Shown here piece by piece: positions 18,747-23,811 of a stretch of 33,857 nucleotides of DNA. How positions within the stretch are numbered: position 1 is the first letter of the stretch; each line of letters opens with the position of its first letter. This DNA comes from Candidatus Cloacimonetes bacterium ADurb.Bin211 (lineage in GTDB: Bacteria; Cloacimonadota; Cloacimonadia; Cloacimonadales; Cloacimonadaceae), in NCBI GenBank assembly GCA_002070045.1, contig MWCN01000071.1, positions 1 to 33,857 on the forward strand, given 5' to 3'. Below the pieces are notes generated by a model, which was not told the DNA's origin, ran no database searches, and saw only the letters and a program-made list of their open reading frames with translations. The position numbers and the translations under genes are program-made.

Positions 18747-21700
18747 ATGAAAAAATTTATTATCATCATCTCTCTTATTGTGGCAATAACAGCTATCTTT
18801 GCCATAAAATTTGATCCTGATTATTTCGTCTCAAAATCTATCATAGTATGCTTTACTAAAACAGCTATAGGTAATGATACAGGCAAAATTGACTTTACCA
18901 AAAATGAAGGAATTGTTCAAACTGGTATCTCCTCCTTTGATAAGCTCGCTCTGGATTATAGCATAGTAAATATGGAACAGATGCACCCCTATGTTAAAGA
19001 CCCTACCTGGAATGACAACGGTTTATATCTTCAAAATACTTATCGCTTAACCTTAGCTTCCGATGATAATATAGATAAAGCAGTTGAAGCTTTGTCTAAG
19101 GATAAAAACCTGATTTATGCAGAATTGGAAGGTATCGTCCGCAGTAAGTTCGTCCCTGATGACCCTCTCGTAACCCAACAATATGTGCATGAGGTCATCA
19201 GCAGTTATGATGCCTGGGATTATATCCAGGGTTCACACAATGTAAAAGTTGCAATAACTGATTCTGGTGTTAAATGGAATCATCCTGACCTCCGGGGCAA
19301 TATCTGGATTAATCCTGATGAAGCTCCTGGTATGACTATAAATTGGGATGCTGGAACTATATCAGGTGGTGATGGTATTGATGCTGGAGAAGGTGGAAAT
19401 AAAATAGATGATTTGATGGGCTGGGATTTTTATACTGGAGATAATAACCCTATTCAGAATTTTGCAGACAATGATCATGGCACTCATGTAGCAGGCTGTG
19501 CTGGGGCAGTTGGAAATAATGCTATAGGAGTGGTTGGCACCTCACCAGTAGTTTCAATAATTATTTGTAAAGGTGCTCCCGATACATCTCCTTCGCAAGG
19601 CGTTTCTTTTGCTTATGACCAGGTTAAATATGCTGGAGAAGTTGGTGCTGATATCATCAATGCCAGCTGGGGTAGTGTCGGTAATGGTGCATATCCCAAT
19701 TCTATCGTTAATTATGTAACCAATCTTGGTGCTCTAGTCGTTACTGCCGCTGGAAATGAAAATATGGAACATAATAATTCCTATCAGGATTATCCTGCAG
19801 ATTGCACTAATGCCTTATGTGTAGCTTCAACCGGACGTAATGATATAAAATCCAGTTTTTCTGATTATGGTGAACCAATTGATATCTGTGCTCCTGGTGA
19901 AACCATTCTTTCTACTATCATAGCTAATAACGGTTATAGCTCCTATAATGGCACTTCTATGGCTTCACCTATTACCGCTGGTGTCTGTGCTCTGGTTAAA
20001 GCACTCAATCCTGAACTGACTCCTCAACAGCTAATGCAAAGAATAATGCATACTGCTGATTATATTTATGACATAAATCCTGATTATGTTGGAATGCTTG
20101 GTGCAGGAAGACTAAATGCCTTTGCCGCTACAATGTATGATAAGATTCCCAATATAACTATAGAAGATTATATGCTGGAAGAATTCCAGGGTGATGGAGA
20201 TGGAATTCCCAATCCTGGAGAGACTATAAAGTTAAAAATATCCCTGAATAACTATATAGACCCCTATACGGGACTTTCCTGGCTGCAAGCACAAGACCTC
20301 ACGGCTACTCTTTCTACTAACTATCCTGGGATTACAATTATAGAAGATACTGCCAATTATGGAACAATGATTGCCGGTAGCTCTATGTGGAATAATAACC
20401 AACCCTTCATATTCCAAACAGTTGCCTCTTTACCTTCTGAGCCTATACCTTTTGAACTTACGGTAACCGCCAACCAATCTTCTCCTTATCCCTATAACAG
20501 AGTCCTTCCCCTTAATATTACGCTCTCCTTGAATCAAGCAGGTTGGCCTATGAATGTAGGAGGTGCTTCCACTTCCAGTGCAATTATCTATAATTTGGAT
20601 TCAGATCTAGACAAAGAAATAATTATCTCAGAACCAGCGGGAATTGTCCATATCTTGAAACCTGATGGAACAACGGAACTGGATGGATTTCCTCTCAATT
20701 TAGGTTCTCCTATTGTTGGTTCAATAGCAATGGCAGATGTTGATTATGATGGTACTATGGAATTTGCAGCTTCTTTACAAAATAATAATATCGTACTTTT
20801 CAATCAGAATGGCACTATACTCTGGACCTATCCTGCTGGAGGAATGCTTCGTAATGGTACTGTTATAGCTTCTCTCGCTATGGATAATACTCAGCAAGTA
20901 ATTGCCATCACTCAAACAGGAAATTTAGTTGTTTTAAATCCAGATGGCACTGCTTATCCTAATTTTCCTGTTTCAGCTCTGGGTGTTTGTCTTGGACTTC
21001 CCGCTATTGGTGATTTAAATGGAGATGGACATCATGAAATAATTGTTGCCACTATGGCTGGCAATTTAAATGCCATCAATAGCACTAATGCTCAAAGTAT
21101 TCCTGGTTTTCCTGTTGCAATGCAAGGCGGTTCTCAAAATCCCATTACCATAGCTAATCTGGATGATGATAACTATCCTGAAATCATCGTTACGACCACT
21201 ACTACTGGTAATGTTATGGTTTATAATCACGATGGAACACTGCTTTTCCAGAAAAATGTAGGAGGACAGATTAAGACTGGTTCCGTAGTAGCTGATATGG
21301 ATAATAATGGGACAAAAGAAATAATTGTGATTAACACTGCAGGAGTGATAAATGTCCTCACAACTTCTGGAGATGATTATCCTAACACACCTCTTTCCAT
21401 TAATCAATCTGTAGAATGCACTCCTACCATTGCTCGTTTTGATGGAGAGAATTATGCAGGAATCATCTTTGGAGATGCCGATGGCTATCTTCATAGTGTG
21501 AGAGTTGATGGCACTGAATCTCCTAATTTCCCTATTCTACTTGGTGGTAATGTAAAAGTCTCTGCTGCTTTAAGTGATATAGATAGAGATAGCGATTTTG
21601 ATATTGTAATTCCTAACGATGAATCTATCTTTGTAATAGATGTGAAGCGTCCAGCTCAATCTTATGAATGGTATTGCTATATGGGAACCTGGAATCGTAG

Positions 21701-22028
21701 CGGAAATATCTATCAAGCAACTCCAAATAATGATAGCACCATACCTCAACTGGTTACTACTTTGTATGGCAATTACCCTAATCCTTTTAATCCTGAAACT
21801 ACCATAAGATTTGAATTAGCGAATGCTGGCTTTGTGACTATGGATATCTTCAATCAAAAGGGACAGCTGGTTAAAACTCTTTTAAACACTGAGTTACCAG
21901 CAGGTTTTCATCAGATTACCTGGAATGGAAAAGACCAGAATGGCTCTCCAGTCAGCAGTGGAATCTATTACTACCGTATGCGTTCTGGAAAATACTCTTC
22001 CACTCGTAAAATGATATTAATGAAATAG
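18747..22028 (+). CDS. Secreted subtilase (S8) with FG-GAP-like repeats and type IX sorting domain
   Basis: A 1093-residue extracellular or surface serine protease. Domains in order: signal peptide (1-19); a propeptide-like region (about 27-135); the S8 catalytic domain (about 150-455) with Asp172 (AITDSGV), His244 (NDHGTHVAG) and Ser404 (NGTSMASP); a C-terminal extension of the beta-sandwich type (about 465-590); five or more FG-GAP/VCBS-like blades with Asp-rich loops (NLDSDLDKEII, DVDYDGTMEF, DLNGDGHHEIIV, NLDDDNYPEIIV, DMDNNGTKEIIV, about 595-985); and a type IX/Por sorting domain (about 1008-1093) starting YPNPFNPETTI and ending in a short basic-hydrophobic tail (RKMILMK). Ribosome binding site GAGG 6 bases upstream. 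The triad is intact, so activity is expected; substrate unknown. Confidence 0.93.
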   Translation: MKKFIIIISLIVAITAIFAIKFDPDYFVSKSIIVCFTKTAIGNDTGKIDFTKNEGIVQTGISSFDKLALDYSIVNMEQMHPYVKDPTWNDNGLYLQNTYRLTLASDDNIDKAVEALSKDKNLIYAELEGIVRSKFVPDDPLVTQQYVHEVISSYDAWDYIQGSHNVKVAITDSGVKWNHPDLRGNIWINPDEAPGMTINWDAGTISGGDGIDAGEGGNKIDDLMGWDFYTGDNNPIQNFADNDHGTHVAGCAGAVGNNAIGVVGTSPVVSIIICKGAPDTSPSQGVSFAYDQVKYAGEVGADIINASWGSVGNGAYPNSIVNYVTNLGALVVTAAGNENMEHNNSYQDYPADCTNALCVASTGRNDIKSSFSDYGEPIDICAPGETILSTIIANNGYSSYNGTSMASPITAGVCALVKALNPELTPQQLMQRIMHTADYIYDINPDYVGMLGAGRLNAFAATMYDKIPNITIEDYMLEEFQGDGDGIPNPGETIKLKISLNNYIDPYTGLSWLQAQDLTATLSTNYPGITIIEDTANYGTMIAGSSMWNNNQPFIFQTVASLPSEPIPFELTVTANQSSPYPYNRVLPLNITLSLNQAGWPMNVGGASTSSAIIYNLDSDLDKEIIISEPAGIVHILKPDGTTELDGFPLNLGSPIVGSIAMADVDYDGTMEFAASLQNNNIVLFNQNGTILWTYPAGGMLRNGTVIASLAMDNTQQVIAITQTGNLVVLNPDGTAYPNFPVSALGVCLGLPAIGDLNGDGHHEIIVATMAGNLNAINSTNAQSIPGFPVAMQGGSQNPITIANLDDDNYPEIIVTTTTTGNVMVYNHDGTLLFQKNVGGQIKTGSVVADMDNNGTKEIIVINTAGVINVLTTSGDDYPNTPLSINQSVECTPTIARFDGENYAGIIFGDADGYLHSVRVDGTESPNFPILLGGNVKVSAALSDIDRDSDFDIVIPNDESIFVIDVKRPAQSYEWYCYMGTWNRSGNIYQATPNNDSTIPQLVTTLYGNYPNPFNPETTIRFELANAGFVTMDIFNQKGQLVKTLLNTELPAGFHQITWNGKDQNGSPVSSGIYYYRMRSGKYSSTRKMILMK

Positions 22029-22103: not shown

Positions 22104-22327
22104 ATTTATTTAAGTTAACTCTTTTTTACTTCCACCTTATCTCTTTCTTGTCTCTTTAGTTAAGAAAGTGTTGAGAAATAGTCAGATGTAATTTTATTTT
22201 TTCTTTTAACCGATTTTCTTATAACTGCTTATTTTTAGCTTTCAAAATACAGGTAACAACCAGAAAGAGGACTTGAATTCACCAGATTAGTCATTGACAT
22301 AAAACAAATTTAGAAAAACCTTGAACT

Positions 22328-22490
22328 CAGAATAGATGGTGCTACTTGATAGGTAAAAGGGAATCTCGTGAAAAGCGAGAGCGGAAACCGCCACTGTAAG
22401 CAGCAAAAATGGCTGAATCAGTCACTGTTTAATAATGGGAAGGCTGATTCCATATAGCCGCTGTAAGCCAGGAAACCTGCCACTAATTAC
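22328..22490 (+). ncRNA. Cobalamin riboswitch aptamer
   Basis: Conserved elements of the adenosylcobalamin/cobalamin riboswitch occur in order: GGTGC (22338-22342), AAAAGGGAA (22355-22363), a GTGAA segment with flanking stem CTCG/CGAG, the core GCGGAAACCGCCACTGTAA (22381-22399), a peripheral stem GGCTGAATCAG (22411-22421) with CTGATTC (22444-22450) and AGCC (22456-22459), and the B12 box AGCCAGGAAACCTGCC (22466-22481). It precedes the beta-propeller gene and normally represses expression when cobalamin is abundant. The exact outer boundary of the aptamer is approximate. Confidence 0.95.
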
Positions 22491-22565
22491 ATCTCTGTTA
22501 TACGGTTTCATTAACAGAATGGCAAAGTAGTTCATCCCTATTCAATATAATTAGAATAAGGTGAA
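22478..22565 (+). promoter_or_regulatory. Riboswitch expression platform sequestering the ribosome binding site
   Basis: Downstream of the B12 box, TCTGTTA (22494-22500) pairs with TAACAGA (22512-22518), and TGCCA of the B12 box end (22478-22482) can pair with TGGCA (22520-22524), competing with the aptamer. A second hairpin then forms: TTCATC (22531-22536) with GGTGAA (22560-22565) and TATTC (22539-22543) with GAATA (22554-22558). This buries the AAGG ribosome binding site. No T-run follows, so control is probably at translation initiation. Pairings were found by eye; energies were not computed. Confidence 0.6.
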
Positions 22566-22569
22566 CCAA

Positions 22570-23811
22570 ATGAAACAACTAAAAATCACTCTTTTGGCAG
22601 TATCTATCTGCCTTTTGCTTATTCCTTTAAAGGGGACAGAAATATATGTCTTAAATTCTGTCTCACGCACTCTTTCTCGTATAGATACAGAGACCGGAAT
22701 AGTTAATAATACCTTTGCTCAGTTAGGTCTAACTCCCAATCTTATGGATATGGATGATAATAATATCTATGTAGTATGTTCTGGAGATAATGCTATTCAG
22801 GTTATTTCTCGCTCAACTGGCACTCATTTAAATTTCCTACCAGTAGCAGCTTCCAGCAATCCTTATGATGTGCTTAAAGTGGGAGATTATCTTTATGTAA
22901 CGGGCTTATTTACCAATAAGCTTTATAAAATTAGTCTCTTAACTAACAATGTGGTCTCTTCCCTAACCGTTGGAGAAGCACCAGAAGGTATCTGTACTGA
23001 TGGTTCAAGACTTTATGTTTGCAACACGGGAGGGTACCAATACAATTATGCATATAGTTCTATATCTGTGATAGACCTTGATTCTTTCTCTGTGATAGAG
23101 ACCATACCTGTCTGGACTAATCCTCAGTTTGCCTGTATCTTTGGAAATTACTTGCATATAGCCTGCACGGGAAACTGGAATAATATATCCGGAAAAATAG
23201 ATATCATTAATCTGGAAGACCTATCTCTTACTCAACGACTTGATCTTGGAGGACATCCTGGAAATATCTGGATAAACAGTTTAGGAATTGCTTATGTTGG
23301 AGAAGGTATGAGTAATGCGCTATATAGTTATAATGCTCATACCTTTGAAATCTATCATAGTTATCAAAATCCTATGAACTATAATGCTTTTATGGTGGCT
23401 GGTAATCAAGATATACTAGCTTTATTGAATCAAGACTGGACTTCTAATTCTACGATTACAGTCTATGACTATGATTTTAATTTATTAAGCACTTATATGG
23501 TGGGAATTTCTTCTACTGACCTTATGGTATCACCTTCAGTATCATCGTTAGAAGATGAATGTAATATAGTTCCCCGGCTAAAGATTTATCCCAATCCATA
23601 TTCTTCTGGGAAAGAAATACATTTTTCAGCCAAAATTACCTCCTCCAGTCAGCTGTATCTTTATAATATAAGAGGACAGTTGGTCTATAAGACACAATTA
23701 AAAGAGACTTCCCCAATTATTCTACCTCAAACGCTTTCTCCCGGAATCTATCTTTATAGAATTATCCAGGAAACAAAGAATGATTATGGCAAATTGTTAA
23801 TTGAGAATTGA
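22570..23811 (+). CDS. Cobalamin-regulated secreted beta-propeller protein (YncE/YVTN-like) with type IX sorting domain
   Basis: A 413-residue protein: signal peptide (1-22 or so, ending near LKG), a seven-blade-sized YVTN/YncE-type propeller (about 25-320) with repeated patterns such as NNIYVVCSGDNAIQVI, DYLYVTGLFTNKLYKI and SRLYVCNTGG, then a C-terminal type IX sorting domain (about 335-413) starting IYPNPYSSG and ending YGKLLIEN. The ATG at 22570 is preferred over an in-frame GTG at 22561, because the ribosome binding site AAGG(TG) sits at 22558-22563 and overlaps the GTG. The cobalamin riboswitch directly upstream implies a role in B12 uptake. By analogy with Bacteroides BtuG, a surface propeller that binds B12 for BtuB, I infer a surface cobalamin-capture protein. 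No BtuB or transport gene is next to it. Confidence 0.85.
   Translation: MKQLKITLLAVSICLLLIPLKGTEIYVLNSVSRTLSRIDTETGIVNNTFAQLGLTPNLMDMDDNNIYVVCSGDNAIQVISRSTGTHLNFLPVAASSNPYDVLKVGDYLYVTGLFTNKLYKISLLTNNVVSSLTVGEAPEGICTDGSRLYVCNTGGYQYNYAYSSISVIDLDSFSVIETIPVWTNPQFACIFGNYLHIACTGNWNNISGKIDIINLEDLSLTQRLDLGGHPGNIWINSLGIAYVGEGMSNALYSYNAHTFEIYHSYQNPMNYNAFMVAGNQDILALLNQDWTSNSTITVYDYDFNLLSTYMVGISSTDLMVSPSVSSLEDECNIVPRLKIYPNPYSSGKEIHFSAKITSSSQLYLYNIRGQLVYKTQLKETSPIILPQTLSPGIYLYRIIQETKNDYGKLLIEN

Follow-up and report, generated by a model that had tools for sequence, protein, structure and literature searches.

We analysed a 33,857-nt stretch of DNA (hereafter the window) from a 1.4 Mb, 72%-complete genome bin of the Cloacimonadota, an almost uncultivated phylum that is common in anaerobic digesters and anoxic waters. 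The nearest named relative of this genome is Candidatus Syntrophosphaera thermopropionivorans, at 84% protein identity. The locus under study, which is read on the forward (+) strand throughout, consists of a cobalamin riboswitch, a leader and a single open reading frame, here called the btuG-like gene. Directly upstream of the riboswitch, at 18747-22028, the window encodes an S8 subtilase that contains FG-GAP repeats and whose C-terminal domain is type IX/FlgD-like. The locus was compared with a family sample of 50 genomes and a phylum sample of 125 Cloacimonadota genomes, 71 of them good; the survey for the propeller, the riboswitch and the gene arrays thus had Cloacimonadota as its scope.

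The riboswitch aptamer is complete and occupies 22320-22498 (+ strand), where cmscan matched RF00174 with 83.2 bits (E=2.8e-19, against a gathering score of 31.5) and covered all of model positions 1-189, as expected from the original prediction of a canonical cobalamin riboswitch. No other RF00174 match was found in the 72%-complete window genome. At least one cobalamin riboswitch is present in 41 of the 50 family genomes and in 101 of the 125 phylum genomes. Between the aptamer end and the ATG of the btuG-like gene there are 71 nt, and within them a hairpin (GTTCATC...GGTGAAC, 22530-22566, + strand) is predicted to pair over the Shine-Dalgarno sequence AGGTGA at about 22559-22564. The predicted pairing probability of the Shine-Dalgarno sequence is 0.98 in the window leader and at least 0.75 in 26 of 27 leaders; the position of the hairpin is kept across genera in the alignment, and one pair is altered on both sides in two sequences. 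The pairing in the window leader was not significant when compared with shuffles, as 73 of 500 shuffled sequences pair the Shine-Dalgarno sequence equally well, and RNAalifold gave no net consensus energy on the aligned leaders. Judged from the leader sequences, a hairpin that hides the Shine-Dalgarno sequence is likely, and it would be compatible with translational shut-off upon B12 binding.

The btuG-like gene extends from 22570 to 23811 (+ strand, stop included) and encodes 413 amino acids; it starts with ATG at 22570, or alternatively with GTG at 22561, and its stop codon ends at 23811. Sequence and orthologue comparison indicate a Sec signal peptide of about residues 1-21 (22570-22632), with cleavage predicted near residue 21. 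This signal peptide has no lipobox, and the lipobox cysteine is absent from all 39 family orthologues and all 29 distant orthologues compared. The following part, residues 22-325 (22633-23544), is a seven-bladed propeller of the YVTN/YncE type, in which YVTN repeats were matched by TIGR02276 (E=6e-12). An AlphaFold2 model, calculated with 39 orthologues as input, has a mean pLDDT of 92 and displays seven blades of four strands each, with the first strand at residue 23. A linker (residues 327-333) with pLDDT below 50 joins the propeller to a type A C-terminal sorting domain of the type IX system at residues 338-413 (23581-23808), which scored 33.4 bits with PF18962 (cut-off 27) and 42.9 bits with TIGR04183 (cut-off 23). 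The type A domain is present in 39/39 family and 32/33 phylum-wide propeller sequences. The domain order claimed for this single gene, namely signal peptide, YVTN propeller and type IX sorting domain, is confirmed.

Relation of the propeller to BtuG

When the AlphaFold2 model was compared with the PDB by Foldseek, the closest solved full-length folds were BtuG1, BtuG2 and BtuG3 of Bacteroides thetaiotaomicron, the chains of which took ranks 2-17 with an rmsd of about 3 Å, E-values from 1.9e-16 to 1.3e-14 and TM scores (target) mostly of 0.74-0.80. The next propellers followed from 3.5e-12 with poorer superposition. Sequence identity between the propeller and BtuG is about 17%, and when the single protein was used as query against the PDB, its matches to BtuG were only partial and of uncertain register. 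This doubt was settled by the phylum-wide profile, built from 33 propeller orthologues, which aligned residues 24-331 with BtuG1 60-387 in register along the full propeller (E=1.4e-24). A structural comparison had been named as the check on the original prediction, and by the Foldseek ranks and the in-register BtuG1 match the similarity to BtuG exceeds that of a generic propeller fold. The loci examined contained no unrelated YVTN propeller against which the fold search could be controlled, and a search of plasmids gave weak generic propellers and nothing more.

In both PDB searches (sequence profile and Foldseek, where it took rank 1), the top E-value went to the archaeal S-layer protein 1l0q, which is likewise a YVTN repeat propeller; its structural superposition is poor overall (rmsd 14 Å) and its profile match covers part of the protein. 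We know of no B12 context for 1l0q.

Within the family, the B-C and D-A loops are more conserved than the loops of the opposite face (0.70 vs 0.52, p=7e-6), and from the loop positions named for BtuG (PMC10404256) this conserved face would correspond to its B12-binding face. Two of the loops on this predicted ligand face stand out by conservation. The blade-4 B-C loop, TGGYQYNYAYS (residues 153-163, 23026-23058), is conserved, and in the alignment BtuG1 also has a long blade-4 loop (NTGGY.. vs SNSGGLDY.., SNSGGLDYSGPGVDTT). The blade-5 B-C loop, CTGNWNNISG (residues 199-208, 23164-23193), has invariant G201, W203 and G208. Agreement with BtuG2 at the level of single residues is less complete. 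The counterpart of its blade-1 'pliers' loop (Asn54-Thr64) is shorter in the Cloacimonadota propeller. For its contacts Trp194, Trp272, Tyr316 and Tyr239, the predicted ligand face carries conserved aromatic loops of uncertain residue equivalence, and those aromatics that narrow its pocket (Trp194, Trp272 and Tyr316) are without assured one-to-one counterparts. In addition, the negative ligand face of BtuG2 is not reproduced by a simple charge count, which gave -3 for the predicted ligand-face loops vs -9 for the other face.

YVTN propellers are widespread and their superfamily is broad. The protein might then be a B12-regulated surface propeller with another ligand or role (an adhesin, an S-layer part or a protein for another cofactor) that is grouped with B12 genes on other grounds. 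Such a role would agree with the S-layer protein as top-scoring PDB entry, with BtuG2 contacts that are not conserved one-for-one, with a ligand face that is not strongly negative and with the wide occurrence of YVTN propellers. But BtuG is the nearest full-length fold, and the gene is linked throughout the phylum to btuF, btuC, btuD and a BtuB-like receptor under a cobalamin riboswitch (see below), and we consider this alternative quite improbable. Still less credible is an extracellular corrinoid-processing enzyme, that is, a lactonase-like propeller and not a binder. Lactonase-type propeller families, among them L-NosZ and PQQ_ABC_repeats, were matched, but these matches are weak, all far below the curated cut-offs, and the match to BtuG is stronger over the full length. 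Overall, the fold, the full-length profile and the phylum-wide membership in B12 uptake arrays support the prediction that this propeller is BtuG-like, as far as sequence and model can tell.

The B12 uptake array in Cloacimonadota

Orthologues of the propeller were found in 45/50 family genomes, 103/125 phylum genomes and 67/71 good Cloacimonadota genomes, with one copy each at E<=1e-30 in the phylum genomes. Of the 52 riboswitches in the 50 family genomes, 51 are followed at a distance of 68-196 nt by either a propeller gene (36) or a TonB-dependent receptor gene (15), and this association exceeds chance. The sole family riboswitch placed otherwise (G024, contig C163, locus L002) precedes an anaerobic ribonucleoside triphosphate reductase gene, which could be a B12-independent backup enzyme or could belong to a contaminant contig. 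Another observation is a 121-bit cobalamin riboswitch in G050 (contig C51, L239:2520-4817) before a gene for a fused, succinyl-CoA ligase-like CoA-ligase. Five Cloacimonas-type genomes (G001, G003, G004, G006 and G009; loci L046-L050) have kept the propeller with no riboswitch before it, even at a permissive threshold, and a degenerate riboswitch was looked for at these propellers and none was found.

Outside the family, all 30 riboswitches on propeller-bearing contigs lie upstream of the propeller and share its strand, mostly at a distance of 7-9 kb, because the btuF, btuC, nifU/nifS/rrf2-like, btuD and receptor genes intervene. The array in many other families has the order riboswitch-btuF-btuC-btuD-TonB receptor-propeller, with the propeller last. 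In many Cloacimonadota families, btuC and btuD flank a cluster of nifU/nifS/rrf2-like genes that is read from the opposite strand (e.g., L134:3080-8375; loci L220-L236). One family has a shorter array of riboswitch-btuD-receptor-propeller.

The array is broken up in the family of the window. Two genomes of genus g7 have riboswitch-receptor-propeller and several genomes of genus g8 have riboswitch-receptor-riboswitch-propeller, whereas the genus of the window has the riboswitch and propeller alone, its receptor lying at a separate locus without a riboswitch. In the window genome, btuD and the receptor gene are on contig C58, where they still adjoin the nifU/nifS/rrf2-like genes, and btuF-btuC are on contig C142. 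Since arrays of btuF-btuC-btuD-receptor-propeller occur across the phylum and are dispersed in this family, the isolated position of the propeller is a derived state, left when a B12 uptake array broke up, and not an ancestral unlinked design. The original prediction of a stand-alone gene without btuB is accordingly correct for the locus in this genus but does not extend to the genome, in which btuB, btuD, btuF and btuC lie elsewhere; similarly, the suggestion of an unlinked surface component describes the isolated locus of the window genus but not the ancestrally linked design.

The partner proteins that were to be sought in the rest of the genome were found (btuB, btuF, btuC and btuD, together with type IX parts). 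In a PDB search with its family profile, the receptor of the window genome was closest to BtuB1, BtuB2 and BtuB3, followed by E. coli BtuB and then by other receptors, and Foldseek placed BtuB1/2/3 of B. thetaiotaomicron at ranks 1-6. TIGR01779 is the best family for this receptor, with a score below its cut-off. The best matches of the BtuF-like protein are solved vitamin B12-binding proteins, and a single permease of the window genome, nearest to BtuC, scores above the FecCD family cut-off. CbiC, a marker of de novo corrin synthesis, is absent from 7/7 sampled genomes, and B12-binding enzyme domains are present in the same proportion (7/7). With CbiC as a single marker, this is suggestive of a phylum that appears unable to make corrinoids yet carries B12-dependent enzymes.

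In G030 and G029 (loci L104 and L105), which belong to one genus, both the receptor and the propeller are closer to those of other genera than to those of congeners; the BtuC of G030 is closest to congeners, and in G029 no BtuC was found. The pair may have been replaced jointly, which would fit a partnership of receptor and propeller, but the two neighbouring genes could also have travelled together by chance, and we do not take this as strong evidence.

Export, tethering and comparison with known systems

Cloacimonadota figure among the phyla for which type IX systems are considered possible (PMC11285876). SprA was found in 7/7 genomes, including that of the window (G000), which also has a PorV homologue; PorU was not located in the search of the genome for type IX translocon genes. 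The absence of a lipobox in the orthologues, the sorting-domain scores above cut-offs, SprA and the PorV homologue all agree with the proposal that the protein is probably exported by the type IX system instead of the lipoprotein route. Next to btuF-btuC, the window genome (L169:3381-9740, contig C142) encodes a homologue of PorV, a type IX cargo and a protein of 1024 aa that has no Pfam match; this neighbourhood recurs in G016 and G027 and, in part, in G001.

In BtuG2, the N-terminal lipid and linker make a hinge on BtuB (PMC10404256). The Cloacimonadota propeller has practically no N-terminal linker, so if it acts as a lid, it would be tethered by the opposite terminus, or else it would have to be brought to the receptor or set free close to it. 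Release following C-terminal cleavage is known for some type IX cargoes (PMC11285876). The propeller may likewise bind corrinoids but be released after type IX processing, as a diffusible, haemophore-like B12 scavenger and not a receptor lid, which is a variant of surface capture and compatible with corrinoid capture. The missing N-terminal lipid anchor and linker, and a gene unlinked from the receptor in the window genus, would all suit a released protein. We nevertheless regard release as unlikely, considering that the propeller gene directly follows the receptor gene with gaps of 17-57 nt in G013, G029 and G030, and that the structural relatives are membrane-anchored caps.

Taking together the observed riboswitch, domain order, BtuG-like fold, phylum-wide array membership, BtuB, BtuF, BtuC and BtuD and the type IX parts, our assessment (probability roughly 0.87) is that the propeller is a riboswitch-controlled, type IX-exported surface corrinoid-capture protein of the BtuG type, which passes corrinoids to a BtuB-like receptor. 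We infer cobalamin binding, receptor contact, B12-dependent expression and a mode of anchoring for the propeller as follows. When cobalamin is scarce, the riboswitch would leave the Shine-Dalgarno sequence free and the btuG-like gene would be translated. The protein would be exported by the Sec pathway, after which the type IX system would read its C-terminal domain and carry the propeller across the outer membrane; on the outer side, it would remain attached to the cell or close by. There, the propeller would bind corrinoids on its B-C/D-A loop face and pass them to the BtuB-like TonB-dependent receptor, and BtuF and BtuCD would then import them.

BtuG has been described as exclusive to Bacteroidetes, and BlastP at the settings of that 2018 paper found no homologues outside this group (PMC6143338); similarly, lipoprotein-capped TonB transporters are seemingly exclusive to Bacteroidetes (PMC10404256). 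We found no prior report on BtuG with type IX secretion, or on cobalamin in Cloacimonadota, in a search of mainly open-access literature. What is new relative to this literature is a BtuG-type cap outside Bacteroidota, in the Cloacimonadota genomes surveyed, in which a C-terminal type IX signal replaces the N-terminal lipid. We lean towards the view that lid-assisted, TonB-dependent B12 uptake extends beyond the lipoprotein-bearing Bacteroidota, and that Cloacimonadota use for it a propeller which is secreted by the type IX system and held by a C-terminal tether. If this is true, the tether of the 'pedal bin' would have the opposite polarity here or its cap would be delivered from outside, and capping as a strategy would need no lipid anchor and would be older, or more mobile, than previously assumed. 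In terms of metabolic dependence, B12 supply could limit Cloacimonadota, given their apparent inability to make corrinoids.

Among known systems, BtuG binds cobalamin very tightly, with sub-picomolar affinity. The Cloacimonadota propeller resembles BtuG1/2/3 in being a seven-bladed YncE/YVTN propeller that is surface-directed, under cobalamin riboswitch control and encoded with a BtuB-like TonB receptor and BtuFCD. It differs from them in its host (Cloacimonadota and not Bacteroidota) and in its anchoring features: BtuG is a surface lipoprotein that carries its lipid and its hinge at the N-terminus and also has an export signal, whereas the propeller has neither lipobox nor N-terminal linker but a C-terminal type IX domain. 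The strict published definition of BtuG excludes it, since the lipoprotein feature was tested and is absent; in most of the other tested features, it behaves like BtuG. Other exported B12 scavengers, the DUF4465 proteins BtuH and BtuJ, are encoded near B12 transport genes in several bacterial clades (PMC13398666, PMC8941943), but they have an unrelated fold that is not a propeller. The 'pedal bin' transporters formed by BtuB1/2/3 and BtuG are nearest to the receptor of the window genome in both sequence profile and structure, with the difference that receptor and propeller are at separate loci in the window genus, where a complex of the two is putative. Finally, B. thetaiotaomicron has three parallel loci, whereas the Cloacimonadota system is simpler, with one propeller and one B12 receptor per genome.
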